NCBI RefSeq assembly: GCF_024584515.1 | Contig: NZ_CP102173.1 | Coordinates: forward strand, 992,001 to 1,056,000 | Length of the DNA stretch: 64,000 bases | Origin: Aeromicrobium wangtongii | Lineage (GTDB): Bacteria; Actinomycetota; Actinomycetes; Propionibacteriales; Nocardioidaceae | Direction: 5' to 3' | In this document: positions 22,076 to 37,605 of the stretch, piece after piece | Layout of the letters: every line of letters starts with the position of its first letter | How positions within the stretch are numbered: position 1 is the first letter of the stretch | The notes under the pieces: generated by a model | What the model saw: the letters and a program-made list of their open reading frames with translations, nothing else | The model's database searches: none | Told to the model about the DNA's origin: nothing | Translations under genes and position numbers: made by a program

Positions 22076-22114
22076 ATGAGGAAACCCTCGGATTAAAGTT
22101 GAGGAATCCCTCAT
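22076..22114 (+). promoter_or_regulatory. fas promoter with paired operator (fasO-like)
   Basis: Two palindromes lie here: ATGAGG-N4-CCTCGG (22076-22091) and TTGAGG-N4-CCTCAT (22099-22114). A -10-like TAAAGT (22094-22099) runs into the second one. The same paired motif, WTGAGG-N4-CCTCAT, with TATAGT at the same place, precedes the carboxylase gene at 39497-39540. A FasR-type regulator is the likely binder by analogy with Corynebacterium; its gene is not identified here. Confidence 0.65.
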
Positions 22115-22176
22115 GTTTTGCGAGGATGGAGGTCACCGACCGTCGATCCAGCGACGGCAGGACCGAGGGACTCCAC

Positions 22177-25100
22177 GTGACGATCGACACCCTGCACGCC
22201 ACCAGCCACCCGACCGAGCGCCGCGGAGCCCTCGTCGATCGCATCCTGGCCGGCACGCCGTACGCGATCGGATTCGGCGGGCAGGGCAGTCCGTGGCTGG
22301 AGCCGCTGGCCTCACTGGTCCGCGACTACGCGCTGGACGCCGAGCTGGAGTCACTCGTGTCGCAGGCCGATGCGCTCGTGGCGCCGGTCGCCACGGAGCT
22401 GGCCCGCGTCGGGGTGGCCTTCGACCCGCTGGCCTGGGCGGACGTCCTGGCGTCGGCGGAGTCCGCCGAGGACGATGACGCGCCTGTCCTCCCGGGTGCC
22501 GAGGTGCTGGATGCCCCGGGCGCCTCGGTGCCGGGCATCCTGCTGGCCCAGCTCGCCGGGATCCGCGCACTGCGCCGTCAAGGCATCGACCCGCACGTCG
22601 TCGCGCCGGCCGCTGTGATCGGCCACTCCCAGGGGCACCTGGCCACGCAGTCGCTCGCCGGGGTGCCCGATGCTGAGCTGCTGGCCGTCGCGCGGCTCAT
22701 GGGCGCCGCCGCCCAGCTGGTGGGACGCCGCCGCGGTCTGCTGGGTCAGACCATGCTGAGCGTCTCGAACGTCGTCCCCGAGCGCATCGACGCGATCCTC
22801 GCCGAGCTGCCGGCGTCGCTGCGCGTCGTGTCGCGCCTGCGCAACGGCCGCCGCAGCGTCGTGCTGTCCGGGCCGGCCGAGGGACTGCAGGTCGTCGAGG
22901 CGCGATTCGCGGAGATCTCGGCCGCGGAGAAGGCCGAGCGTGACCGCAAGACCACCGGCGGCTCCCCGTTCGCGCCGGTGCTGGAGCCGCTGCCGGCACG
23001 ACTGGCCTTCCACCACCCGGACCTGGCGGAGGCCGCCGATCTCGTCGCGACCTGGGCCGCGGCGTGCGGGCTCGACGCGGAGGTGGCTCGCAGCCTCACG
23101 ATGCACTCGATCGTCGACGCCGTCGACTGGGTCGCCGCGCTGGACGGCGCGGCGGACGCCGGCGCCTCCTGGATCCTGGACCTCGGTCCCGGCGACCTGA
23201 TGACCCGGCTGTCGTCGCGCGAGCTGCTGGCCCGCGGCGCAGCCGTCATCGCCACGACGACCCGCCGCGGCCACCGCGAGCTGACGGCCGCAGGTGCGAC
23301 GCCCCGTCTGTCGACGCCGTGGTCGGCCTACGAGCCCACCGTGGTGACCCTGCCCGACGGCACCTTGCACGCCGAGACCCGCTTCACCCGGCTCACCGGC
23401 AAGTCCCCGATCCTGCTGGCCGGCATGACGCCGACGACGGTCGACCCCCAGATCGTGGCGGCCGCGGCCAATGCGGGCTTCTGGGCCGAGCTGGCCGGCG
23501 GCGGTCAGGTCACCGAGGAGATCTTCGCCGATCACGTCGCCCAGCTGGACGAGCTGCTCACGGCGGGCAGCACCTACCAGTTCAACTCCCTGTTCCTTGA
23601 CCCGTACCTGTGGAAGCTGCAGCTGGGGCAGAAGCGGCTCGTCCAGCGTGCGCGCGCGGCCGGTTCGCCGATCGACGGCGTCATCGTCACCGCCGGCATC
23701 CCCGAGCTCGACGAGGCGGTCGCCCTCGTGGAGGAGCTGCGCGAGGCATCCATCGCCCACGTCGTCTTCAAGCCCGGCACCGTCAAGCAGATCCGCCAGG
23801 TCATCGCGATCGCCAAGGAGGTCGCGCCGACGGCGGTGCACATCCAGATCGAGGGCGGCCGGGCCGGCGGCCACCACTCGTGGGAGGACCTCGACGACCT
23901 GCTGCTCGCGACGTACGGCGAGCTGCGCAAGCTCGACAACGTCGTGGTGTGCGTCGGCGGTGGCATCGGGACGCCCGAGGTCGCGGCGGCCTACCTGACC
24001 GGCGAGTGGTCGCGCCGTCACGGCTTCCCGCTCATGCCGCTGGACGGCATCCTCGTCGGCACGGCCGCGATGGCCACCCTGGAGGCCACGACGTCCCCGG
24101 CCGTCAAGCAGCTGCTGGTCGAGACCCGTGGCACCGGCACCTGGGTCGGTGCGGGCACCGCGAAGGGTGGCATGGCATCGGGCCGCAGCCAGCTCGGCGC
24201 CGACATCCACGAGATCGACAACACGGCGTCCCGCACCGGGCGCCTGCTCGACGAGGTCGCCGGTGACGCCGAGGCGGTCGCCGCCCGTCGCGACGAGATC
24301 ATCGAGGCGCTGGACCGCACCGCCAAGCCGTACTTCGGTGATGTCGCCACCATGACCTACGCCCAGTGGCTGCGCCGCTACCTCGAGCTGTCCGGGACCC
24401 CCGCATGGCTCGACGTCACCCTGCGTGACCGTTTCGTCGCGATGCTGCAGCGGGCCGAGGCGCGCCTGCACGAGGCCGACCGTGGCCGCATCCCCACGCT
24501 GTTCGACGATGCCTCGAGCGTCGACGACGGCGCTGCCGCCCTGCAGAGGCTGCTGGACGTCTTCCCGCATGCTGAGGACGTCACGCTGCACCCGGGCGAC
24601 GTTGCATTCTTCGTCGACCAGTGCCGGACACCGGGCAAGCCGGTCAACTTCGTGCCGGTGCTCGACCAGGACGTCCGCCGCTGGTGGCGCTCGGACTCGC
24701 TGTGGCAGGCTCACGACGCGCGGTACGCCGCCGACGAGGTCTGCATCATCCCCGGCACGGTCTCCGTGGCCGGCATCGACCGGGTCGACGAGCCCGTCGC
24801 CGAGCTGCTGCGCCGCTTCGAGGACGCCACGATCGACGGTCTGCTGGCCGCCGGGCGCGCTCCCCAGCGGGTCGCCGGACGCCGCCGCGTCGACGGCGCC
24901 GGTGAGATCCTCTCCCTCGTGCTGGCCGCACCCGATCTGGTGTGGGCCGGCCGAACGGTCCGCAACCCCGTCCACCGACTCGGCTCCGGGTGGGTCATCG
25001 TCGACGAACGGCGCGCGGAGCACCCCGAGACCGGTGCTGCCCTGCTGCAGGTGGGCGACCGCACCGCCGAGCTGTCGGTGCCGATGGCCCGGCCGCTCAC

Positions 25101-28100
25101 GTTGCGCATCGACGTCGACGGCCCGGTGCTGACCGGCGCCGCGCCGGTCGTCAGCACGTCGAGCGCCGTCGAGGCGATGAGCTCGCTCGTGGCAGGGGCA
25201 GCCGGCGGCGACGTCCCGGTCGTCCACGCCGGCCGCGCGGCCGCGACCGTGGAGTGGGACCCGGACCTGATCGCCGACCACGCCGGCGTCACCGGCGCCG
25301 AGGTGCCGGTGCACCCGGTGCCGGACGTCCTGGTCGGGCTCGCCTGGCCGTCGGTGTTCGCCGTGCTCGGCGACGCCACGACGCCGGAGGGGCTGCCGGT
25401 CATCGAGGGCATGCTCGACCTGGTCCACCTCGACCACGCGATCCGCCTCACGGGCGAGCTCCCGGCCGCGCCGTCGCGGCTGGTCATCTCATCGGTCCTC
25501 GACTCGATCGAGGACACCGACTTCGGCCGCGTCGTGTCGGTCGACGTCACGGTCTCCGCGCCTGACGGCCAGGTCGCGACGTTGCGTGAGCGGTTCGCGA
25601 TCCGTGGCCGCACCGGCGCCGGCCAGCTGTCCGACCCGGCGCGTGCGGGCGGGGCCCTGGGCGACGACGTCCGCGACACGCCGCGCACGTCCCGCGGCAC
25701 GGCCACGCTGGTCGCCCCCTCGGACCTGCGTGCCTTCGCCGCGGTCACCGGTGACCACAACCCGATCCACACGAGCGTCGCTGCCGCCCGCCTCGCCGGG
25801 CTGGGCGCGCCGATCGTCCACGGCATGTGGATCTCGGCGGCGGCCCAGCAGATCGTCTCGGATCGCCGGATCACCGGCTGGACCACCCGCTTCCTGTCCC
25901 CGCTGGCACCGGGCGCCCCGGTGTCGGTGACCGCCGACCGGGTCGGCCTGGACGCCGGCGCCGAGGTTCTCGACGTCACTGTCCGCTCCGGCGGGGACGT
26001 CGTGATGTCCGCAACCGCCCGTCTGGAGGCACCGCGCACCGCCTATGCCTTCCCCGGCCAGGGCATCCAGCACCGGGGGATGGGCATGGCCGCCTACCAG
26101 CGCTCCAAGGCCGCCCGCGAGATCTGGGACCGCGCCGACGCGCACACCCGTGAGGCGCTCGGCTTCTCGATCCTGACCGTCGTCCGCGACAACCCGACGA
26201 CCCTGGTGACGCGCGGCGTGACCCACCGCCACCCCGACGGTGTCCTGTTCCTGACCCAGTTCACGCAGGTCGCCATGGCCGTCCTCGGCGCGGCGCAGAT
26301 GGCCGAGCTGCGCGAGTCGGGCGCCTTCGTCGAGGGATCGATCCTGGCCGGCCACTCGGTCGGTGAGTACAACGCCCTGGCCGCGGTCTCCGGCGTCATC
26401 CCGCTCGAGGCCGTCGTGGAGGTCGTGTTCCAGCGCGGCTCGGTGATGCACGCGCTCGTCCCGCGCGATGCCGCCGGACGCAGCAACTACCGGCTCGCGG
26501 CGATCCGCCCCTCGCAGATCGGTCTGACCGACCACGACGTCACGGCGTTCGTGGACGGCATCGCCGAGCGCAGCGGGGAGTTCCTGCAGATCGTCAACTA
26601 CAACCTGAAGGACTCGCAGTACGCGATCGCCGGCACCGTCGCCGGTCTGGAGGTGCTGGAGACCGAGGTGGCCCGGTTGCGCGCCGAGCACGGGGGCAAG
26701 GCCGCCTTCATCCTGGTGCCGGGCATCGACGTGCCGTTCCACTCCACCGTGCTGCACGGCGGCGTGCCGGACTTCCGGGAGCGACTGCAGGAGCTGCTGC
26801 CCGCCACGATCGACCCGTCGATCCTGACTGGGCGCTACGTCCCCAACCTGGTCCCGCGGCCGTTCTCGCTGGACCGCACCTTCCTGCAGGAGATCGCCGA
26901 CCTGGTGCCGTCCGAGCCCCTCGACGCGGTGCTGTCGGACTTCGCGACCTGGGCCGCGCGGCCCGGCGAGCTGTGCCGGATCGTGCTGATCGAGCTGCTG
27001 GCCTGGCAGTTCGCCAGCCCGGTGCGCTGGATCGAGACGCAGGACCTGTTCTTCGGCGCGGTCGAGGACGGCGGCCTGGGCGTCGAACGCTTCATCGAGA
27101 TCGGCGTCGGCCAGTCACCGACCGTGGCCAACCTGGCCGCCTCGACGCTCAAGCTGCCGGGCCGCTACGGCCCTGCGGTGCAGGTGCTCAACTTCGAGCG
27201 CGACAACGCCGTCGTGTTCGGCACCGACGAGCAGCAGGCGGCCCACGAAGAGGAGGCGCCGGTCGTTGAGCCTGTCGAAGCGACGTCGGCTCCGGTCCCT
27301 TCGACAGGCTCAACAGGCGTTTCGACAGGCTCAACGGGCAGTGGACCGCGTCCCGCCGACCTGACCTTCGACGCGGCCGACGCCACCACGGTGCTCATCG
27401 CCTGGTGGACCAAGCTGCGGCTGGACCAGATCGGCGCGGCCGACTCGATCGAGTCGCTGTGCGACGGCGCCTCGTCGCGGCGCAACCAGCTGCTCGTCGA
27501 CCTCGGCGGCGAGCTGGGCCTCGGCGCGATCGACGGTGCGGCCGATGCCGACCTCCCGACCCTCCAGGGTCAGGTCAAGGGACTGGCCCGCGGGTACAAG
27601 CCCTTCGGTCCGGTGCTGTCCGAGGCGCTGAGCGACCACCTCAAGAAGGTGCTCGGCCCGACGGGCAAGCGCCAGGCGTCGATCGCCGAGCGGGTCACCG
27701 ACGTGTGGCAGCTCGGCGCGGGCTGGGCCAGCCACGTGCTGGCCGAGCTGGCGATGTCCAGCCGTGACGGTGCGAGCGTCCGCGGCGGTGACTTCGGCCC
27801 GCTGGGCGCGATGTCGTCGGCCGCCGACGTCGACGCCGCGGTCGACGCGAGCGTCCAGGCCGTGGCGGCGCGTCACGGCGTCAGCGTCGCGCTGCCGTCC
27901 ACCGGCGGGGGAGAGGCCACGATCGATGCGGCCGCCCTCGGCGAGTTCACGGCGCAGATCACCGGGCCCGACGGGGTCCTGGCCTCGTCCGCCCGGCTCG
28001 TCCTCGACCAGCTGGGCCTGACCGAGGTGCCGTCAGTCGTCGAGCCCGATGCGGCCGACGCCGAGGTGCTCGCCCGGGTCGAGTCCGAGCTCGGCAGCGA

Positions 28101-31100
28101 CTGGGCCAAGCTCACCGCACCTGCGTTCGACCCGTCCAAGGCCGTCCTGCTGGACGACCGGTGGGCCAGCGCCCGCGAGGATCTCGCGCGCATCGCGGTC
28201 GGCGAGACGATCGACGCGTCCTTCGTCGGCGCAGGCTCGGCCGTCGCGGCGCAGGCCACCTGGTGGGCATCGCACGTCGGCAGCGCCGAGCTGGCCGAGC
28301 GGTTCACGCAGATCGCGCAGGACGCCGCCGCGGCGACGTCCGGGCGCTGGTCCGACGAGCTGGCGGTCGTGACCGGCGCCAGCAAGGGCTCCATCGCGGC
28401 GGGCATCACCGCCGAGCTGCTGGCCGGCGGTGCGACGGTCGTCGCGACGACGTCCGGGCTCGACCCGGCCAAGCTCGCCTTCTTCAAGCAGCTGTACCGC
28501 AGCCACGCCGTCCACGGCGCCGCGCTGTGGATCGTGCCGGCCAACATGGCGTCCTTCTCCGACGTCGACGCACTGGTGGCCTGGATCAGCGACGAGCAGA
28601 CGCAGACCCGGGCCGGGGCGACGACCGTGCTCAAGCCGGCCATGACGCCGACCCTGCTGTTCCCGTTCGCGGCGGGACGCGTCGCCGGTGACCTGACGGA
28701 GGCCGGCAGCCGCACCGAGGTCGACATGCGCATCCTGCTGTGGTCGGTCGAGCGCCTGATCGGCGCGCTGTCCGCGCACGGCCAGGACCACGACATCGAC
28801 GCGAAGCTGCACGTCGTCCTGCCCGGCTCGCCCAACCGTGGCATGTTCGGCGGCGATGGCGGCTACGGCGAGGCCAAGGCGGCACTGGACGCCCTGGTCA
28901 GCCGCTGGTCGGCCGAGCGTACCTGGGGCGAGCGGGTCACCTTGGCCCACGCGATCATCGGCTGGGTGCGCGGCACCGGGCTGATGGGCGCCAACGATCC
29001 GCTGATCGAGGCCGTCGAGGCCGCGGGCGTCCGCACCTGGACGCCGCAGGACATGGCGGCGGCACTGCTGGAGACCTGCACCCCGTCGGCTCGTGCCGCG
29101 GCTCAGACCGAGCCGTTGACGGTCGACCTGACCGGTGGTCTGGGCGACACCCAGCTCGACATGCGGGCCCTGGCCGAGGGGCTGGAGCGGCCCGTGGCCG
29201 AGGCCCAGGACGAGGCCGGCACGATCGCGGCCCTCGCCCCGTCACCGGCCCAGCTCGACCGCGTCGAACAGCTCGCATGGGCCGCCGTCGACGCCCGTCC
29301 CGAGGACCTCGTGGTCATCGTCGGCGCCGGTGAGCTCGGGCCGTACGGCTCGGCGCGCACCCGCTTCGAGGCAGAGGTGTCCGACGAGCTGTCGGCCGCT
29401 GGCGTCCTCGAGCTGGCCTGGTCGACCGGCATGGTCAGCTGGGACGAGCAGGGCGGCGGCTGGTTCGACACCGCGACGCAGGACAAGGTGGACGAGGCCG
29501 ATCTGGTCGAGCGGTACGAGGACGCGGTCCGCGAGGCCGTCGGCATCCGCCGCTACGTCGACGAGGGCGCGATGGTCGAGAACTCGGCCCCGCTGCTGAC
29601 GTCGGTGTTCCTGGACCACGACCTCTCGTTCACGGTCGGCACCGAGGCCGAGGCACGTGCCCTGCGCGAGGCCGATCCCGAGCGCACCGTGATCTCGGCG
29701 GGCGCCGACGGCGACTGGACCGTGACCCGCAAGGCCGGCACCGAGATCCGGGTGCCGCGCCGCATGAAGCTGACCCGGACGGTCGGCGGACAGATCCCGA
29801 CCGGGTTCGACCCGACGGTGTGGGGCGTCCCGGCGGAGATGGTCGAGTCGATCGACCGGGTCGCGCTGTGGAACCTGATCTGCACCGTCGACGCCTTCTT
29901 GTCCAGCGGCTTCACGCCGTCCGAGCTCATGCGCTGGGTGCACCCCGCGCTGGTCGCCAACACGCAGGGCACCGGCATGGGCGGGATGCAGTCCATGCAG
30001 TCGCTGTACATCGACACGCTGCTGGGCGAGAGCAAGGCCAACGACATCCTGCAGGAGGCGCTGCCCAACGTCATCGCGGCGCACGTCGTGCAGTCGTACG
30101 TCGGCTCCTACGGTGCGATGGTGCACCCGGTCGCGGCCTGCGCCACGACGGCCGTCTCGGTCGAGGAGGGTGTCGACAAGATCCGCCTCGGCAAGGCGCA
30201 GTTCGTGGTCTCCGGCGGCTTCGACGACCTGAGCATCGAGGGCATCGTCGGCTTCGCCGACATGTCGGCCACGGCGGACTCGGCGGCGATGCGCGACAAG
30301 GGCATCGAGGACCGGTACTTCAGCCGCGGCAACGACCGGCGCTACGGCGGATTCGTGGAGTCGCAGGGCGGCGGGACGATCCTGCTGGCCCGCGGCGACC
30401 TGGCCGCCCGGATGGGTCTGCCGGTGCTCGGGGTCGTGGCGTACGCCGGATCGTTCGCCGACGGCGTGCACACCTCGATCCCGGCCCCCGGCATCGGCGC
30501 ACTGGCCGCCGGTCTCGGTGGTCAGCAGTCGGCGCTGGCGCGCGGCCTGGCCCAGGTCGGCCTGACCGCTGACGACGTGGCCGTCGTGTCCAAGCACGAC
30601 ACGTCGACCGGCGTCAACGAGCGCAACGAGTCCGAGCTGCACGAGCGACTGGCCTCGGCCATCGGCCGCAGCGACGGAAATCCGCTGTTCGTCATCTCGC
30701 AGAAGACCCTCACCGGTCACGCGAAGGGCGGCGCGGCTGCCTTCCAGATCATCGGCCTGTGCCAGGTGCTGTCCGGGGGAGTGGTTCCGCCGAACCGCAG
30801 CCTCGACTGCGTCATGGACGATCTGGCCGATCACGAGCACCTGGTGTGGCTGCGCGAGCCGCTGCCCACCGGTCAGCTCAAGGCCGGGCTCGTCACGAGC
30901 CTCGGCTTCGGTCACGTCGCCGGCCTGCTGGCGATCGTGCACCCCCAGGCATTCCTCGCGACCTTGCCGGCCGCGGACCGTGATGCGTACGCAGAGCGTG
31001 CGCAGGCCCGTGCCATCGAGGGCCGGATGCGGATCGTCCGGGCGATGTACGGGGGCCCCTCCCTGTACGAGCGCCCGGCCGACCGGCGTCTGGGCAGCGA

Positions 31101-31191
31101 GGGAGTGCGGACCCGGGAGGCAGGCATGCTCCTGGACCCGCAGGCACGACTCGGGGAGGACGGCGCCTACGACGGCGTCGCGTGCCGGTGA
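22177..31191 (+). CDS. fas: type I fatty acid synthase, single chain
   Basis: This 3,004-residue multidomain enzyme makes acyl-CoA from acetyl- and malonyl-CoA with NAD(P)H. Domains in order: acetyltransferase (GHSQG, Ser near 151), enoyl reductase (from about 400, LLAGMTPTT), dehydratase of MaoC hot-dog type (VTGDHNPIHTS, about 1189), malonyl/palmitoyl transferase (GHSVGEY, about 1391), acyl carrier domain (GAADSIESL, about 1752), ketoreductase (VTGASKGSIA, about 2063) and ketosynthase (ACATTAVS with catalytic Cys near 2653; GHAKGG near 2846). This is the mycobacterial FAS-I order. GTG 22177 follows GAGGGA by six bases and matches the M. tuberculosis N-terminus; TTG 22099 lies in the operator and is rejected. 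The linker before the carrier domain (about 1690-1722) contains three copies of a dispersed DNA repeat. Confidence 0.97.
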   Translation: MTIDTLHATSHPTERRGALVDRILAGTPYAIGFGGQGSPWLEPLASLVRDYALDAELESLVSQADALVAPVATELARVGVAFDPLAWADVLASAESAEDDDAPVLPGAEVLDAPGASVPGILLAQLAGIRALRRQGIDPHVVAPAAVIGHSQGHLATQSLAGVPDAELLAVARLMGAAAQLVGRRRGLLGQTMLSVSNVVPERIDAILAELPASLRVVSRLRNGRRSVVLSGPAEGLQVVEARFAEISAAEKAERDRKTTGGSPFAPVLEPLPARLAFHHPDLAEAADLVATWAAACGLDAEVARSLTMHSIVDAVDWVAALDGAADAGASWILDLGPGDLMTRLSSRELLARGAAVIATTTRRGHRELTAAGATPRLSTPWSAYEPTVVTLPDGTLHAETRFTRLTGKSPILLAGMTPTTVDPQIVAAAANAGFWAELAGGGQVTEEIFADHVAQLDELLTAGSTYQFNSLFLDPYLWKLQLGQKRLVQRARAAGSPIDGVIVTAGIPELDEAVALVEELREASIAHVVFKPGTVKQIRQVIAIAKEVAPTAVHIQIEGGRAGGHHSWEDLDDLLLATYGELRKLDNVVVCVGGGIGTPEVAAAYLTGEWSRRHGFPLMPLDGILVGTAAMATLEATTSPAVKQLLVETRGTGTWVGAGTAKGGMASGRSQLGADIHEIDNTASRTGRLLDEVAGDAEAVAARRDEIIEALDRTAKPYFGDVATMTYAQWLRRYLELSGTPAWLDVTLRDRFVAMLQRAEARLHEADRGRIPTLFDDASSVDDGAAALQRLLDVFPHAEDVTLHPGDVAFFVDQCRTPGKPVNFVPVLDQDVRRWWRSDSLWQAHDARYAADEVCIIPGTVSVAGIDRVDEPVAELLRRFEDATIDGLLAAGRAPQRVAGRRRVDGAGEILSLVLAAPDLVWAGRTVRNPVHRLGSGWVIVDERRAEHPETGAALLQVGDRTAELSVPMARPLTLRIDVDGPVLTGAAPVVSTSSAVEAMSSLVAGAAGGDVPVVHAGRAAATVEWDPDLIADHAGVTGAEVPVHPVPDVLVGLAWPSVFAVLGDATTPEGLPVIEGMLDLVHLDHAIRLTGELPAAPSRLVISSVLDSIEDTDFGRVVSVDVTVSAPDGQVATLRERFAIRGRTGAGQLSDPARAGGALGDDVRDTPRTSRGTATLVAPSDLRAFAAVTGDHNPIHTSVAAARLAGLGAPIVHGMWISAAAQQIVSDRRITGWTTRFLSPLAPGAPVSVTADRVGLDAGAEVLDVTVRSGGDVVMSATARLEAPRTAYAFPGQGIQHRGMGMAAYQRSKAAREIWDRADAHTREALGFSILTVVRDNPTTLVTRGVTHRHPDGVLFLTQFTQVAMAVLGAAQMAELRESGAFVEGSILAGHSVGEYNALAAVSGVIPLEAVVEVVFQRGSVMHALVPRDAAGRSNYRLAAIRPSQIGLTDHDVTAFVDGIAERSGEFLQIVNYNLKDSQYAIAGTVAGLEVLETEVARLRAEHGGKAAFILVPGIDVPFHSTVLHGGVPDFRERLQELLPATIDPSILTGRYVPNLVPRPFSLDRTFLQEIADLVPSEPLDAVLSDFATWAARPGELCRIVLIELLAWQFASPVRWIETQDLFFGAVEDGGLGVERFIEIGVGQSPTVANLAASTLKLPGRYGPAVQVLNFERDNAVVFGTDEQQAAHEEEAPVVEPVEATSAPVPSTGSTGVSTGSTGSGPRPADLTFDAADATTVLIAWWTKLRLDQIGAADSIESLCDGASSRRNQLLVDLGGELGLGAIDGAADADLPTLQGQVKGLARGYKPFGPVLSEALSDHLKKVLGPTGKRQASIAERVTDVWQLGAGWASHVLAELAMSSRDGASVRGGDFGPLGAMSSAADVDAAVDASVQAVAARHGVSVALPSTGGGEATIDAAALGEFTAQITGPDGVLASSARLVLDQLGLTEVPSVVEPDAADAEVLARVESELGSDWAKLTAPAFDPSKAVLLDDRWASAREDLARIAVGETIDASFVGAGSAVAAQATWWASHVGSAELAERFTQIAQDAAAATSGRWSDELAVVTGASKGSIAAGITAELLAGGATVVATTSGLDPAKLAFFKQLYRSHAVHGAALWIVPANMASFSDVDALVAWISDEQTQTRAGATTVLKPAMTPTLLFPFAAGRVAGDLTEAGSRTEVDMRILLWSVERLIGALSAHGQDHDIDAKLHVVLPGSPNRGMFGGDGGYGEAKAALDALVSRWSAERTWGERVTLAHAIIGWVRGTGLMGANDPLIEAVEAAGVRTWTPQDMAAALLETCTPSARAAAQTEPLTVDLTGGLGDTQLDMRALAEGLERPVAEAQDEAGTIAALAPSPAQLDRVEQLAWAAVDARPEDLVVIVGAGELGPYGSARTRFEAEVSDELSAAGVLELAWSTGMVSWDEQGGGWFDTATQDKVDEADLVERYEDAVREAVGIRRYVDEGAMVENSAPLLTSVFLDHDLSFTVGTEAEARALREADPERTVISAGADGDWTVTRKAGTEIRVPRRMKLTRTVGGQIPTGFDPTVWGVPAEMVESIDRVALWNLICTVDAFLSSGFTPSELMRWVHPALVANTQGTGMGGMQSMQSLYIDTLLGESKANDILQEALPNVIAAHVVQSYVGSYGAMVHPVAACATTAVSVEEGVDKIRLGKAQFVVSGGFDDLSIEGIVGFADMSATADSAAMRDKGIEDRYFSRGNDRRYGGFVESQGGGTILLARGDLAARMGLPVLGVVAYAGSFADGVHTSIPAPGIGALAAGLGGQQSALARGLAQVGLTADDVAVVSKHDTSTGVNERNESELHERLASAIGRSDGNPLFVISQKTLTGHAKGGAAAFQIIGLCQVLSGGVVPPNRSLDCVMDDLADHEHLVWLREPLPTGQLKAGLVTSLGFGHVAGLLAIVHPQAFLATLPAADRDAYAERAQARAIEGRMRIVRAMYGGPSLYERPADRRLGSEGVRTREAGMLLDPQARLGEDGAYDGVACR
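27265..27280 (+). repeat. dispersed repeat inside fas, copy 1
   Basis: GTTGAGCCTGTCGAAG lies in the linker before the carrier domain and reads V-E-P-V-E-A in frame. Its reverse complement occurs twice within the next 55 bases and in an acyl-CoA dehydrogenase gene 18 kb away. Confidence 0.75.
27299..27314 (-). repeat. dispersed repeat inside fas, copy 2 (inverted)
   Basis: CTTCGACAGGCTCAAC is the exact reverse complement of copy 1, so copies 1 and 2 form a 16-bp inverted repeat with an 18-base spacer. In the fas frame it reads P-S-T-G-S-T. Confidence 0.75.
27321..27335 (-). repeat. dispersed repeat inside fas, copy 3 (inverted)
   Basis: TTCGACAGGCTCAAC matches 15 of the 16 bases of copy 2 and encodes S-T-G-S-T. 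With copy 2 it makes a short serine/threonine/glycine-rich linker. Confidence 0.7.
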
Positions 31192-32885: not shown

Positions 32886-32951
32886 CGAATGACGCCGCGG
32901 GGGCGTGACCATCAGGGCCATGTCACGGCGTCATCGAGGGGAAGCACCAGC

Positions 32952-35690
32952 ATGAGACGACAAGTCCTGGCTGCCGCAGTGGTGGCCGCGCTATCGGGGA
33001 CGGTGGCCTTCCAGGCCGTCACGACGGCCTCAACGGCATCGAGCTCGAACGACTCGCGTGATCCGATCTACCTGAACACCCGGTACTCGCCGGAGGAGCG
33101 CGCCGCCGACCTCGTGTCGCGCATGACGCTTCAGGAGAAGGCCAGCCAGATGAACAGCAGCCGGGCCGCGGCGATCCCGCGGCTGGGAGTCGCTGCGTAC
33201 GGCTGGTGGAACGAGGCAGCCCACGGCGTCGCCCGCGAGCAGACCACCGACAACAGCAATCCGCCGATCCTGACCAACACGACGTCCTACCCCGTGTCGC
33301 TGTCGCTGGGCTCGACCTGGAACCCGCAGCTGATGTACGACGAGGCGAGCCTGATCGGCGACGAGGCCCGCGACGTCGTCCAGGAGAACCAGCGCGACCT
33401 CGACTTCTGGTCGCCGACCGTCAACCTGGGTCGCGACCCCCGCTGGGGACGCAATGACGAGACGTACAGCGAGGATCCGTACCTGACCACCGCGATCGCG
33501 TCCAAGTTCGTCAACGGCATGGAGGGCAAGGACGAGAACGGCAAGCTGCTGCGCTCGGGCCGGGGCTACCTGAAGACCGTCACGACGCTGAAGCACTTCG
33601 CGGCCAACAACAGCGAGTTCAACCGTCGCAACGGCTCCTCGGACATGGACGACCGCACGCTGCGCGAGTACTACACGGCGCAGTTCCGAGGCATCGTGAA
33701 GAAGTCGCAGCCGGGCTCGATCATGAGCTCGTACAACCGCGTCAACGGGACCCCGGCCGCGGCCGACGTCTACCTGATCGACACGCTGGCCCGCAAGACC
33801 TTCGGTTTCAAGGGCTACTTCACCTCCGACTGCGACGCGATCTACGAGATCCAGGCCGGGCACAAGTGGCAGCCGCCGGGATTCCCGCGGCCGCTGAACG
33901 AGATCGAGCGGCATGCGTTCGCCAACAGCGCCGGTGAGGACCTGGACTGCAACCAGGGCTATCACGACCAGTACAACTACGGGAACACCGTGCCGACCGC
34001 GGTCGCGCAGGGCATCACGACGCAGACGGGTCTGTACACCGAGAACGACGTCGACGTGTCGGTCGTCCGGCTGTTCACCGCCCGCATGCGCCTCGGTGAG
34101 TTCGACGACGAGTCGAGGGTCCCGTGGGTGCGTGAGGCCCGCAGGCGCCTCGCGCCCGGCACGTGGACCAACAGCGACGCCAACGGCGCCGTCACCCAGA
34201 CGCCCGAGCGACTCGCGATGGCCCGCAAGGCCGCCGACGAGAGCCTCGTGCTGCTGAAGAACGACGCGGTGAAGGGATCGGGCAAGAAGGCCGGCACCCT
34301 CCTGCCGCTGCAGGTTCCCCGCAAGGGTGCGTACAAGGTCGCCGTCGTGGGGCCGTACGCCAACCCCGAGTCGATGTACCTCGGCGGCTACAGCAGCATC
34401 CAGGGTGCAGCCGGCAAGGCCAACCACGTCAACGGCTTCCAGGGCATCTCGAAGGCCGTCAAGGCCATCGACCCGCAGGCCACGGTGGACTACCTGCCGG
34501 GCCTCTCGGGCGATCACAACACGGTCATCGCGGAGGACGTCGCCAAGGTCAAGGGCTATGACGCCGTCGTGGTCTACGCCGGCACCGACAACAAGACCGC
34601 GGACGAGGACACCGACCGCAAGTCGCTGGCCCTGCCCGGTGCGCAGGCACAGCTCATCGAGCAGGTCGCTGCGGCCAACCCGCGCACGGTGGCCTACCTG
34701 GAGACGATGGGCCAGGTCGACGTCGAGTCGTTCAAGTCCGAGGTCCCCGCGATCCTGTGGAGCTCCTACAACGGTCAGCGCAAGGGTGAGGGCCTCGCCG
34801 ATGTGCTGCTGGGCCGCCACAACCCGACCGGGCACCTCCCGTTCACGTGGTACCGCTCGGTCGACCAGCTGCCGGACATCGCCGACTACAACATCCGCCC
34901 CACCGCGACGACCCAGGGACGTACGTACCAGTACTTCACCGGCCCCGTGTCGTACGCATTCGGGCACGGTCTGGGCTACTCGTCCTTCCGCTACTCCAAG
35001 GTCCGGGTCGACCGGTCCTCGGTGGATGCCAACGGCCGCGTGACGGTCACCGCCAAGGCGACCAACACCGGTCGGGCGACCGGGACGGACGTCGTGCAGC
35101 TGTACGCGGCGACGCCCGACTCCAAGCCCTCGCTGGAGCGTCCGATCAAGCGGCTGGCCGGTTTCGACCGGGTCACGCTGAAGCCCGGGCGCAGCGCGAC
35201 GGTGCGCATCAAGGTCAAGATCGCCGACCTGGCGTTCTACGACGAGGCGCGCAGCCGGTACGTCGTCGACCAGGGCCGGTACGACCTGCAGCTCGCGTCG
35301 TCGGCCAAGGACGTCCTGGGCCGCGCGACGACGCGGGTGCGAGGCACGCTCGACGCGGTTCCGTCCGTCGTCACGGCGAACCCGCACACGGCGAAGGACG
35401 CGGCGCGGGACATCCCGCAGCGGGTGTTCTTCACCAAGGGTGACGTGATCGACCCGCAGCTGACCGTCACGCTCAGCGACGACCGGATCTTCGGCCACGT
35501 CACGAAGGGCAAGAGCGTCGCCCTCCCGGCCGGCATGAGGGTGTCGTACCGCAGCAACCGTCCGGACGTCGTCGACGTCACGCGCCGCGGGGCCGTCAGG
35601 GCCACCGGCAAGGGCGTCGCGACGGTCACCGCCACGGTCCGCTACCACGGAAGGAGCAGCACCGGCACCTTCGTGGTGCACGTGGGCTAG
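32952..35690 (+). CDS. secreted GH3 glycosidase, beta-xylosidase type
   Basis: This 912-residue exported enzyme has a signal peptide at residues 1-27 (MRRQVLAAAVVAALSG, then a run ending before SSSNDSRDPIY). The GH3 N-terminal barrel spans about 45-370 and the predicted nucleophile is D293 in FTSDCDAI. Other motifs are WWNEAAHGV, LKHFAANN and SSYNRVNG. The GH3 C-terminal sandwich (about 420-640) and an FN3-like domain (about 690-780) follow, then a BIG2-like domain to the end (SNRPDVVDVTRRGAVRATGKGVATVT). The sequence type is that of xylan 1,4-beta-xylosidases and arabinofuranosidases; substrate is inferred. ATG 32952 has AGGGGAAG upstream and begins the signal peptide; ATG 32889 lies only three bases past the -10 box and is rejected. 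Confidence 0.9.
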   Translation: MRRQVLAAAVVAALSGTVAFQAVTTASTASSSNDSRDPIYLNTRYSPEERAADLVSRMTLQEKASQMNSSRAAAIPRLGVAAYGWWNEAAHGVAREQTTDNSNPPILTNTTSYPVSLSLGSTWNPQLMYDEASLIGDEARDVVQENQRDLDFWSPTVNLGRDPRWGRNDETYSEDPYLTTAIASKFVNGMEGKDENGKLLRSGRGYLKTVTTLKHFAANNSEFNRRNGSSDMDDRTLREYYTAQFRGIVKKSQPGSIMSSYNRVNGTPAAADVYLIDTLARKTFGFKGYFTSDCDAIYEIQAGHKWQPPGFPRPLNEIERHAFANSAGEDLDCNQGYHDQYNYGNTVPTAVAQGITTQTGLYTENDVDVSVVRLFTARMRLGEFDDESRVPWVREARRRLAPGTWTNSDANGAVTQTPERLAMARKAADESLVLLKNDAVKGSGKKAGTLLPLQVPRKGAYKVAVVGPYANPESMYLGGYSSIQGAAGKANHVNGFQGISKAVKAIDPQATVDYLPGLSGDHNTVIAEDVAKVKGYDAVVVYAGTDNKTADEDTDRKSLALPGAQAQLIEQVAAANPRTVAYLETMGQVDVESFKSEVPAILWSSYNGQRKGEGLADVLLGRHNPTGHLPFTWYRSVDQLPDIADYNIRPTATTQGRTYQYFTGPVSYAFGHGLGYSSFRYSKVRVDRSSVDANGRVTVTAKATNTGRATGTDVVQLYAATPDSKPSLERPIKRLAGFDRVTLKPGRSATVRIKVKIADLAFYDEARSRYVVDQGRYDLQLASSAKDVLGRATTRVRGTLDAVPSVVTANPHTAKDAARDIPQRVFFTKGDVIDPQLTVTLSDDRIFGHVTKGKSVALPAGMRVSYRSNRPDVVDVTRRGAVRATGKGVATVTATVRYHGRSSTGTFVVHVG

Positions 35691-35714
35691 CGCCCGCAGC
35701 CGGACGGCCCGTGA

Positions 35715-35785
35715 CGGTTTACCACGGTCCCTCCGCAAACCGCGTCCGCCCGAGGGAAATTTCCCTCGGGCGGACGTGGTTTGCC
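35715..35785 (+). repeat. 71-bp inverted repeat, left copy
   Basis: It matches the reverse complement of 36894-36964 at 64 of 71 bases, with the outer 38 identical. Within it 35735-35784 is an almost perfect palindrome (25-bp arms, one mismatch, no loop). It lies 25 bases past the GH3 stop and 20 bases past the 3' end of the AbiEi-type gene, so it can also serve as a terminator for both. Confidence 0.85.
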
Positions 35786-35804
35786 GCGGGTGGACGAGCA
35801 GGCG

Positions 35805-36791
35805 TCAGACGATCGTCGTCCTGTTGCGGCGATAGAGCCTGCGGGACCGTTCCCGTCCCTGCTCGATCCGGGCGGCGGTCGCCGCCTGGCGAGCCGCCGA
35901 CATCTCTGCCCACGTCCATCGCGTCATGCCGAGCTGCTGATCCCGAACGAGGTCCTCGCGTGCCTTCTCGTCGGTCAGCACCTGGCCCACGTCGGAGACG
36001 TACGGGTTGAGGCGCCCGTACTTGACGAGTCCGTCGAACTCGCCGGTGTGGCAGTCGTCGATCCAGGCGAAGTCGGTGCGTGCGATCAGGCGCCCGTCCG
36101 GGCCGACGATCTCGCGTTGGAGCTCGGGATGCGGGATCCGGTGGCGCCACATCATGTGGAGCGAACGGACCTCGCCCACGGTCTCGAGCCGCGGGTCCGC
36201 CATGCGGATCGCGAGCCGTGCCGTGCGGGTGCCGGGCCAGTGGTCGAAGCGGTGGCCGTCCTCCTCGAGGTCGGCGTGCGAGACCTCGCCCGTCCGCATC
36301 GCCGAGGTCGCCAGCACCATGCCGGTCTCGAGCGGCGACAAGCTGCACGCCTCGAACACCGCGCGCTTCGGGGAGCTGACGAGGCGCCCTCCGACGGTGA
36401 CGACGTCGTCCCGGTCGTCATCCACCACGCCTTCGTGGAAGACGACCCCGGCCTCGCGCCGGCCGCGGCGACGGTCCAGGCGGGTGACGTGGACGTCCCT
36501 GAGGTCAGCGCCGTACAGATCGAATCCGAGCAGCGCTGCCGCGGACTGATGCGTCGCCACGACCTGAGGACCGAGCTTGTCGAGGATGGACCGTGTGATG
36601 ACCGCGTGCTGCTGGGACTCGGTCATCAGGTCCCACCCGCGCTGAGGGACGTACGTGCCGTGACGGACCCGGCGCAGGACGCCGGCGCGCATGGCCTGCC
36701 GGATCATGGCATCGCTGTAACCGAGGTCGTTCAGCTGGTGCCGCATCAGGTAGCCGCCGTTCGCCTCGGCGATGACAGTGAGATCGTCCAT
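35805..36791 (-). CDS. AbiEi-type winged-helix protein with nuclease-like C-terminus
   Basis: This 328-residue protein has an N-terminal region (about 1-75: NGGYLMRHQLNDLGYSDAMIRQAMRAGVLRRVRHGTYVP) resembling the AbiEi antitoxin winged helix. The middle part is of unknown fold. The C-terminal region (about 235-290: TDFAWIDDCHTGEFDGLVKYGR, then EKAREDLVRDQQLGMTRW) has the spacing of a PD-(D/E)XK or DUF559/Vsr-like nuclease core, with candidate residues in D-x-n-EFDGLVKY. Related standalone genes are common in actinobacteria and their function is not established. No AbiEii toxin gene is adjacent. Start ATG 36791 gives the full winged helix; no ribosome site is clear. Domain calls rest on visual similarity. 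Confidence 0.65.
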   Translation of the reverse strand: MDDLTVIAEANGGYLMRHQLNDLGYSDAMIRQAMRAGVLRRVRHGTYVPQRGWDLMTESQQHAVITRSILDKLGPQVVATHQSAAALLGFDLYGADLRDVHVTRLDRRRGRREAGVVFHEGVVDDDRDDVVTVGGRLVSSPKRAVFEACSLSPLETGMVLATSAMRTGEVSHADLEEDGHRFDHWPGTRTARLAIRMADPRLETVGEVRSLHMMWRHRIPHPELQREIVGPDGRLIARTDFAWIDDCHTGEFDGLVKYGRLNPYVSDVGQVLTDEKAREDLVRDQQLGMTRWTWAEMSAARQAATAARIEQGRERSRRLYRRNRTTIV

Positions 36792-36893
36792 GGGGCCACG
36801 GTGGGCGATCGCAGGCCGGCTGCGCCGGTGACGGCGTACGTCCTGTGGACGGCTCGATCCATTCTCCGACCTGGGGATGACGCATCCGCCCAG

Positions 36894-36964
36894 GGCAAAC
36901 CACGTCCCCCCACCGGAGATTTGCCACGGGCGGACGCGGTTTGCGGAGGGACCGTGGTAAACCG
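36894..36964 (-). repeat. 71-bp inverted repeat, right copy
   Basis: It is the partner of 35715-35785, on the 5' side of the AbiEi-type gene. Its inner part is more diverged (seven mismatches, all in the inner 33 bases), so its own palindrome is degenerate while the outer 38 bases are intact. It ends ten bases before the stop of the convergent-side TetR gene. Confidence 0.85.
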
Positions 36965-36974
36965 CCTCCCGGGG

Positions 36975-37592
36975 TCAGGTGCGTTCGGCGCTGAGGAGGT
37001 AGGCGGCGAGGAGGCGCTTGAGCTCGATGATCGACTCGCTGTGCTCCTGGCCGTCGCGGATCGAGAAGTTCAGCATCGAGTACACGACGTGGACGAGCAC
37101 CTCGGCCATGATGGTGCGTCGTTCGCGGGGGGTGCCGGGGGTCAGTGGTGCCAGGGCGCGGGCCACCTCGCCGGCGAGCTCGCGCTCCGTGACGGCCGCG
37201 GTCGCCCGGGTGGCAGGCGTGGACTGCACCGCGAGCCACACGGCCCGGCGCGACGGATCATTGACCCACAGCGCCGCCATGTGGTCGATGAACCGGTCCA
37301 GGAACTTGAGCCAGTCCAGCGACGGGATCGCCTCGGCGAAGCTGTGCAGCTCCTGACGGACCGCGACGGCGTCCACCCGGTCGAGCTCGCACACGATCAC
37401 GTACTTGTTCTGGAAGAACTGGTACAGCGTGCCGATCGGGAGCTCCGCCCGGTGGGCGACCTCCTCGCAGGTGAACGACTCGAAGCCGACCTCGAGCAGC
37501 AGCTCGCGGGCCACCAGCAGCAGGTGGTCGAACTTCTTGTGGCTGCGCTCCTGGGTCGGGCGGCGCCGGGGTTCGAGGATCTCGGCCGTCAC
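36975..37592 (-). CDS. TetR-family regulator
   Basis: This 205-residue TetR-type protein has an N-terminal helix-turn-helix: KKFDHLLLVARELLLEVGFESFTCEEVAHRAELPIGTLYQFFQNKYVIVCEL. The C-terminal ligand domain is not assignable. It is the last gene downstream of an SDR and a phosphotransferase on the same strand, with its start 11 bases after the phosphotransferase stop. GTG 37592 is preferred since -10 TAGGGT (37605-37600) ends seven bases upstream, giving a leaderless transcript; GTG 37601 would add three residues. It could control the SDR-phosphotransferase operon or another lipid gene. Confidence 0.82.
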   Translation of the reverse strand: MTAEILEPRRRPTQERSHKKFDHLLLVARELLLEVGFESFTCEEVAHRAELPIGTLYQFFQNKYVIVCELDRVDAVAVRQELHSFAEAIPSLDWLKFLDRFIDHMAALWVNDPSRRAVWLAVQSTPATRATAAVTERELAGEVARALAPLTPGTPRERRTIMAEVLVHVVYSMLNFSIRDGQEHSESIIELKRLLAAYLLSAERT

Positions 37593-37605
37593 GGGCGCCA
37601 CCCTA
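37593..37605 (-). promoter_or_regulatory. -10 element before the TetR gene
   Basis: On the minus strand TAGGGT (37605-37600) overlaps the phosphotransferase stop codon and lies seven bases before GTG 37592. It suggests an internal promoter for tetR as well as read-through from upstream. Confidence 0.45.

Follow-up and report, generated by a model that had tools for sequence, protein, structure and literature searches.

In a 64,000-nt stretch of the Aeromicrobium wangtongii chromosome (contig NZ_CP102173.1, positions 992,001 to 1,056,000; hereafter the window) a 1250-bp element carries one gene, coding for an AbiEi-like half joined to a Vsr-like nuclease domain, between inverted terminal repeats, and gene-free palindromes with the same ends are scattered over the host genome. 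Together they probably represent a two-part mobile-DNA system of a resident gene and non-autonomous palindromes, which is laid out like a REPtron (RAYT gene with REP palindromes) and uses an unrelated enzyme. Comparison of the sequences supports that the gene evolves as a unit together with its repeats and palindromes, and that palindromes are gained or lost between close relatives, whereas from their association we infer that the protein spreads them.

As outlined in Table 1, the element is bounded by arms of 71 bp. Recalculation of the arms confirmed the original prediction: 64 of the 71 positions match, the outermost 38 are all identical, and the left arm contains a palindrome (35735–35784) which is self-complementary at 48 of 50 positions. 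An ungapped alignment widens the repeat to arms of 95 nt (35700–35794 and 36885–36979) at 82% identity. The self-contained cassette proposed at the outset is borne out as a 1250-bp unit with one searched gene between inverted repeats; among the open reading frames (ORFs) listed within the element, the homolog search covered the minus-strand frame at 35805–36791. The alternative description of this gene-bearing unit as non-autonomous is not supported; it is the gene-free palindromes that form the non-autonomous part.

Table 1 Features of the element and of the adjoining genes (window coordinates).
Feature	Position	Strand	Remarks
Gene-bearing element, 1250 bp	35715–36964		Ends CGGTTTACCACGGTCCC... 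and its reverse complement; absent from a relative that is 88% identical on both sides
Left terminal repeat with 50-bp near-perfect palindrome	35715–35785	+	RNA fold of 35715–35804: −61.6 kcal/mol, z −6.8
Right terminal repeat, inverted copy, upstream of the gene	36894–36964	−	Fold of 36875–36964 weaker, z −2.3
Gene, 328 aa, AbiEi-like half and Vsr-like nuclease domain	35805–36791	−	Homologs, alignment, model
Glycosyl hydrolase family 3 (GH3) gene, outside the element, convergent to its gene	32889–35690	+	Domain scan
TetR-type regulator gene, outside the element, ending towards it from the right	36975–37601	−	Pfam TetR_N

When searched against the host chromosome, a single contig of 3.69 Mb, the 71-bp arm gave 31 BLAST matches, which group into 15 places: the window element, which is the sole long copy, and 14 gene-free copies with the same ends. 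The gene itself is single-copy in this genome. Measured between GGTTTACC and GGTAAACC, the cores of the 14 short copies are 88 (7 copies), 119 (5), 120 (1) or 213 bp (1) long, and the whole gene-free elements are two bases longer (90, about 121 and 215 bp). All of them start with CGGTTTACC and finish with GGTAAACC, to which 13 add a G, and the tetranucleotide GTAG at the palindrome foot is absent from all 14. The most perfect copy (L018) folds almost wholly on itself (−91.7 kcal/mol, z −16.7). Rfam returned nothing at the gathering score; its six weak matches, among which mir-9209 had the lowest E value (0.0003; 31.5 bits vs 90), were taken as generic hairpins. Neither viral contigs nor phages gave any match, and plasmids gave one weak partial match.

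Homologs of the gene were present in 44 of 58 genomes, the host genome counted, and each of the 20 loci returned by that search (the window's own included) was enclosed by inverted repeats, with spans of 1221–1273 bp and repeat scores of 25.5–69.5 vs at most 19 in shuffled sequence. Forty distant relatives (23–38% identity) had been expected to serve as a repeat-free control, a role they did not fill: 28 of the 33 placed by tblastn had repeats, and the claim was therefore widened to distant relatives. For a unified test, 112 homolog loci were freed of six truncated or short ones (L075, L089, L090, L096, L104, L213) and collapsed at 95% protein identity to 86. Repeats enclose 80 of these 86 non-redundant relatives, with a median span of 1228 bp: 5/5 at 60% identity or more, 27/27 at 40–60%, 25/28 at 30–40%, 16/19 below 30% and 7/7 of those placed by coordinates. 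Thus, to the initial question whether the repeats go with the gene family, all 32 non-redundant relatives of at least 40% identity give a positive answer. The cut-off for an enclosing repeat (score of at least 16) was chosen after the null maximum of 15.5 was known. In this null of 132 genes of 750–1250 bp the window gene scored 55 and the 131 others at most 15.5; these were taken from 20 Aeromicrobium stretches of 20 kb and the window, i.e. from one genus, while some homologs sit in others, and homologs of other genera were additionally compared with shuffles of their own loci. One relative of the gene (G030:C1:3223985-3224931) appears as two adjacent matches in different frames and is possibly a decaying copy.

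The repeats differ between lineages and go along with the gene. The pattern GGTTTACC-N60-90-GGTAAACC matches 18 of 49 genomes of the genus, the reversed pattern none of the 49, and the matching genomes hold their own sequence versions, some of which are common to close species. In six of the seven genomes with known gene-flanking repeats, the repeat of the gene recurs at no fewer than five further places; in G033 it was found at one other place, together with two places matching the related repeat of G002. Five of six genomes without a strong homolog (G009, G020, G023, G025, G060) had no match to the seven repeats and the sixth (G007) had one. Likewise, the own repeat of nine distant relatives is scattered in their respective genomes, with 17 to 79 matches among the matches listed. 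Altogether 16 further genes were tested in this way: for 15 of them the own repeat recurs at several places elsewhere in the genome, and for the sixteenth at one. Besides Aeromicrobium, the tested pairings cover three further genera of the order. Aeromicrobium sp. Root495 (G011) holds two copies of the gene with two different repeats, and by eye its two palindrome families match these repeats one to one. The 8.5-Mb genome G046 of the same order gave 79 matches in the joint query, and the repeat is, among the matches listed, that of its own AbiEi-nuclease gene; palindromes can therefore be abundant in larger genomes.

These pairings bear on the possibility that some other transposase moves the palindromes as miniature elements, two of which came to enclose the AbiEi-nuclease gene as a passenger. 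Palindromes that remain in two genomes without a close gene (G059, G064) and long AbiEi_4 proteins without repeats speak for such a passenger, but we regard it as improbable: the pairing recurs with unrelated repeat sequences throughout the 80 enclosed relatives, G011 pairs two genes with two repeats, and the window copy is the only long one among the 15 host places. Furthermore, Y1_Tnp (PF01797, RAYT-type transposase) had no match in the host genome at E 0.001 and was absent from 11 of the 12 genomes tested, in searches restricted to this transposase family.

The encoded protein is composed of two parts. Its N-terminal half (about residues 1–199) is AbiEi-like, with 28.6 bits for PF13338 (cut-off 25) and a Foldseek match to the AbiEi structure 6y8q_A (E 1.2e-5), in agreement with the winged helix originally read from the sequence. 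The nuclease assignment of the C-terminus likewise held, since the structure model of this domain (about residues 200–318) displays a nuclease fold, of the Vsr/I-Bth0305I type (PDB 3r3p, 1cw0). Pfam matches of the protein are confined to AbiEi families, and the AbiEi models of PADLOC match it as well. No Pfam DDE family was matched and the best fold matches of the model are AbiEi and Vsr-like, although a DDE transposase may escape such matching. E207, D240, H248, GEFDG 250–254 and K257 are invariant across 20 relatives in alignment A1, whose members came from a whole-protein search with no motif filter. Loci collected with the peptide pattern HxGEFDG[LMR]xK feed a second alignment, A2, in which the invariance of the motif residues is partly built in because of that pattern, and residue invariance was consequently judged on A1. 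Ka/Ks values of 0.11–0.29 in six pairs of relatives show purifying selection on the gene. The Neisseria protein NGO0050 (PDB 3hrl) has the same nuclease fold. Neisseria genomes contain scattered miniature repeats for which no transposase is known, so that a parallel with NGO0050 is conceivable.

At the window site the 1261 bp present here correspond to 28 bp in G012, the relative with 88% identity on both sides. The empty site that the original prediction called for is in this sense available; since the 28 bp contain a GC hairpin and the window retains 11 bp besides the element, the two differ by more than the element and an exact empty-site inference is limited. In relatives, the stretch 3′ of the TetR gene holds gene-bearing elements within one clade, in 11 of the 46 rows of the tree, with 3 label changes vs 10.0 in shuffles, i.e. 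they are clustered and may have a single origin. At the same site short palindromes are present in G027, G035 and G011 and no recognised element in several other genomes; in G059 (L171) a hairpin of unrelated sequence stands there, with arms of about 17 nt starting with GAGATTTGCTCC. At L082 and L088, which belong to different species, two distinct element families border on one and the same neighbouring gene, which suggests insertion hot spots. Given this site and the recurrent TetR site, the gene-bearing unit seems to stay in place for the most part, at preferred sites, and it is the short palindromes that multiply. Around the window element six neighbouring genes were scanned (ACPS, ROK, GH3, TetR, APH-family and short-chain dehydrogenase), and the AbiEii nucleotidyltransferase toxin partner, whose absence had been noted beforehand, is not among them. 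No evidence was found for a defence role, the other function proposed for the gene. Further to the left (22099–31191) lies a single ORF of 3030 aa which by eye resembles a multifunctional type I fatty acid synthase, followed by the 4′-phosphopantetheinyl transferase gene (ACPS).

The placement of the short elements was analyzed for 54 copies, 14 from the host and 40 from the pattern matches of other genomes, of which a part was fetched. According to a codon-usage ORF model none of them lies within a gene; the flanking genes are convergent for 30, tandem for 23 and divergent for 1, and all 14 host copies have convergent or tandem neighbours. The distance to the nearest predicted gene end is at most 20 nt for 47 of the 54. 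After seven orthologous copies had been dropped, TCA (TGA on the other strand) was found directly outside 22 of 94 ends vs 13 of 470 nearby offsets, and it borders 21 of 47 elements, one of them at both ends. A polarity with the TCA border at the intact-hairpin end and decay at the other was considered and rejected (same orientation 10, opposite 9).

Close relatives differ in these sites. For G018 and G059, whose flank alignments are 92–97% identical (86–93% at L115), the element is missing in G059 at six of seven G018 palindrome sites and shared at one, from which we conclude that palindromes come and go. The site corresponding to L145 of G029 carries no element in G065 and only a 14-bp end-like piece in G005. 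Three loci were tried between G027 and G035 and one of them, L122, was located, where G035 has 21 bp between the aligned flanks. All three of the G005 copies examined are common to G029.

With these data two further explanations can be weighed. An AbiEi antitoxin binds its own promoter at inverted repeats. The protein of the element could accordingly be an autoregulated nuclease, for defence or housekeeping, with the palindromes as its operators and the scattered copies as immobile bound sites under selection; the AbiEi-like fold, the repeat upstream of the gene and the position of the scattered copies near genes are in keeping with it. We nevertheless consider this quite unlikely. Only one of the 54 copies lies between divergent genes and promoters are therefore not favoured, even if the gaps between the 23 tandem pairs can hold one; moreover, the sites are not conserved between close relatives and whole 90-bp units with fixed ends are copied. 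That the repeats are ordinary terminators, between two of which the gene lies by chance, is very unlikely in spite of the strong hairpins, the adjacent gene ends and the L114 site, since a fixed 90-bp length and invariant ends that are genome-specific, as well as the enclosure of a single gene family in 80 of 86 instances, would not be expected of terminators. Of the refutation formulated at the beginning, repeats occurring without the gene as ordinary terminators, one part stood, as short gene-free copies do exist beside gene ends; the other did not, as these copies are genome-specific, match the repeats of the resident gene and are missing at orthologous sites of close relatives. At L114 one gene end carries the palindrome element in G018 and a different GC-rich hairpin in G059, as though elements could take the place of terminators or insert into them, and palindrome copies may act as terminators after insertion.

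The mobile two-part system could operate as follows. One resident gene within palindromic terminal repeats encodes a presumed DNA-binding half of AbiEi type and a putative Vsr-like PD-(D/E)XK nuclease, and the same repeats bound the gene-free elements (about 90 bp, and about 121 and 215 bp), which would spread and persist mainly behind stop codons. The AbiEi half would bind the invariant outer 12–17 bp, the nuclease would nick or cut the element ends, the target or both, and host repair or replication would complete the insertion, possibly via hairpin or single-strand intermediates. The gene-bearing unit would move rarely and be inherited mostly vertically while the palindromes multiply. Whether AbiEi-Vsr proteins form a separate class of DNA-mobilising enzyme, in which a stand-alone PD-(D/E)XK/Vsr-type nuclease together with host repair copies palindromes in actinobacteria as a convergent counterpart of the REPtron HUH enzymes, is a bolder proposal on which we are evenly divided.

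Several observations weigh against the mobile two-part system. For six of the 86 relatives no repeat was detected; one of these, L235, has a copy of the 45-bp repeat of L233 adjoining its gene, and this miss may therefore be a gene-boundary artefact. Foldseek alone places Vsr low (E 0.88). The orphan palindromes occur in genomes that are 99% (G059) and 87% (G064) complete and would fit gene loss and another mobiliser equally, and the same holds for the GGTTTACC family of G005, for which the loci seen include no gene-bearing copy that matches it. No recent transposition of a gene-bearing unit within a genome was caught, the pair L091 and L092 being an identical duplication of 6.8 kb; several element junctions are not clean insertions, and the aligned sites display no consistent target-site duplication. 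Compensatory change between the palindrome halves was looked for and rejected: at mirrored positions of the 88-bp cores 100 of 244 cells (41%) at doubly variable pairs are Watson-Crick vs a shuffle mean of 49%, as scored within five genomes with at least three copies (G011 was left out as mixing two families). Unlike in a functional RNA helix, individual base pairs are therefore not maintained. Finally, a phylum-wide sample contained 52 AbiEi_4 proteins with an ExDG motif or of considerable length, only 17 of which have an enclosing repeat. In this survey AbiEi_4 was found in 89 of 149 genomes of the phylum (E 0.001), and 69 loci were examined, chosen non-randomly as the 30 best-scoring and 39 hand-picked long frames; exclusion of six at contig edges left 63. 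Enclosing repeats were present in 10 of 26 with ExDG in the last part (one a 188-aa protein), in 7 of 26 without ExDG but of at least 240 aa, and in none of the 11 short proteins without the motif. The repeat-bounded form therefore accounts for a substantial part, but not the whole, of the longer AbiEi-type proteins.

Among known systems the closest in layout are the REPtrons, which as described in the cited parts of PMC8266576 and PMC3116915 combine a RAYT (TnpA-REP) tyrosine transposase with dispersed REP palindromes. To the extent covered there, both share a usually single-copy, resident-like gene beside palindromes of the kind scattered genome-wide, a mostly extragenic location of the palindromes, and tandem arrays. 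Such arrays were seen here in G005 (C1:3435990-3436189 and 656898-657122) as runs of palindrome units of about 61 bp reminiscent of BIMEs. The REPtron enzyme belongs to HUH/Y1 (PMC8266576, in the part cited), whereas here AbiEi is joined to a Vsr-like nuclease; furthermore, the present palindromes are about 90 bp long with invariant ends, lack GTAG at the outer ends and occur in actinobacteria. Because of the different enzyme, the system works like a REPtron but is none. TIRtrons, in the cited portion of PMC3733652, consist of genes for tyrosine transposases with terminal inverted repeats on either side, some of them moderately repeated; similar are the gene within inverted repeats, the self-complementarity of some repeats and the repeat families formed by some, but TIRtron genes carry HUH and a catalytic tyrosine, whereas the protein here has only AbiEi Pfam matches and its genome no Y1_Tnp. 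The same portion mentions CGTC-tagged palindromic repeats, for which no enzyme is known. The homing endonuclease I-Bth0305I and the endonuclease Vsr of the Vsr/EDxHD group resemble the C-terminal domain in its modelled fold; here this domain is fused to an AbiEi-like half within palindromic repeats, and palindromes lie at many unrelated sites and not at one cognate allele. The AbiE type IV toxin-antitoxin system (6y8q, PF13338) shares the N-terminal half by sequence and fold, but here a nuclease domain is added and no AbiEii partner stands beside the gene. COG4636 proteins are PD-(D/E)XK nucleases proposed as selfish DNA, albeit of another subfamily, and the cited part of PMC551604 does not mention palindromes or inverted repeats for them. 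Pairs of an insertion sequence (IS) with a DDE transposase and its miniature inverted-repeat elements (MITEs) likewise consist of gene-bearing and gene-free copies with shared terminal inverted repeats; unlike these, no fixed-length target-site duplication was found here at the aligned sites. Among the best matches in the open-licence literature, none linked AbiEi or DUF559 genes to inverted or palindromic repeats.

Bacterial genomes commonly contain dispersed palindromes. The present arrangement gives the impression of a mobile palindrome system of a kind not recognised so far, based on a nuclease not known to move DNA, and a family of such nucleases is now tied to lineage-specific palindrome families. 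If they do form a separate class of DNA-mobilising enzyme, AbiEi-Vsr proteins would be a candidate mobiliser for palindrome families without a known transposase. If the link is causal, it would add an enzyme class to bacterial transposition, provide matched enzyme-palindrome pairs for studying recognition, and explain many of the lone AbiEi-type genes of actinobacteria that defence-gene models would flag.
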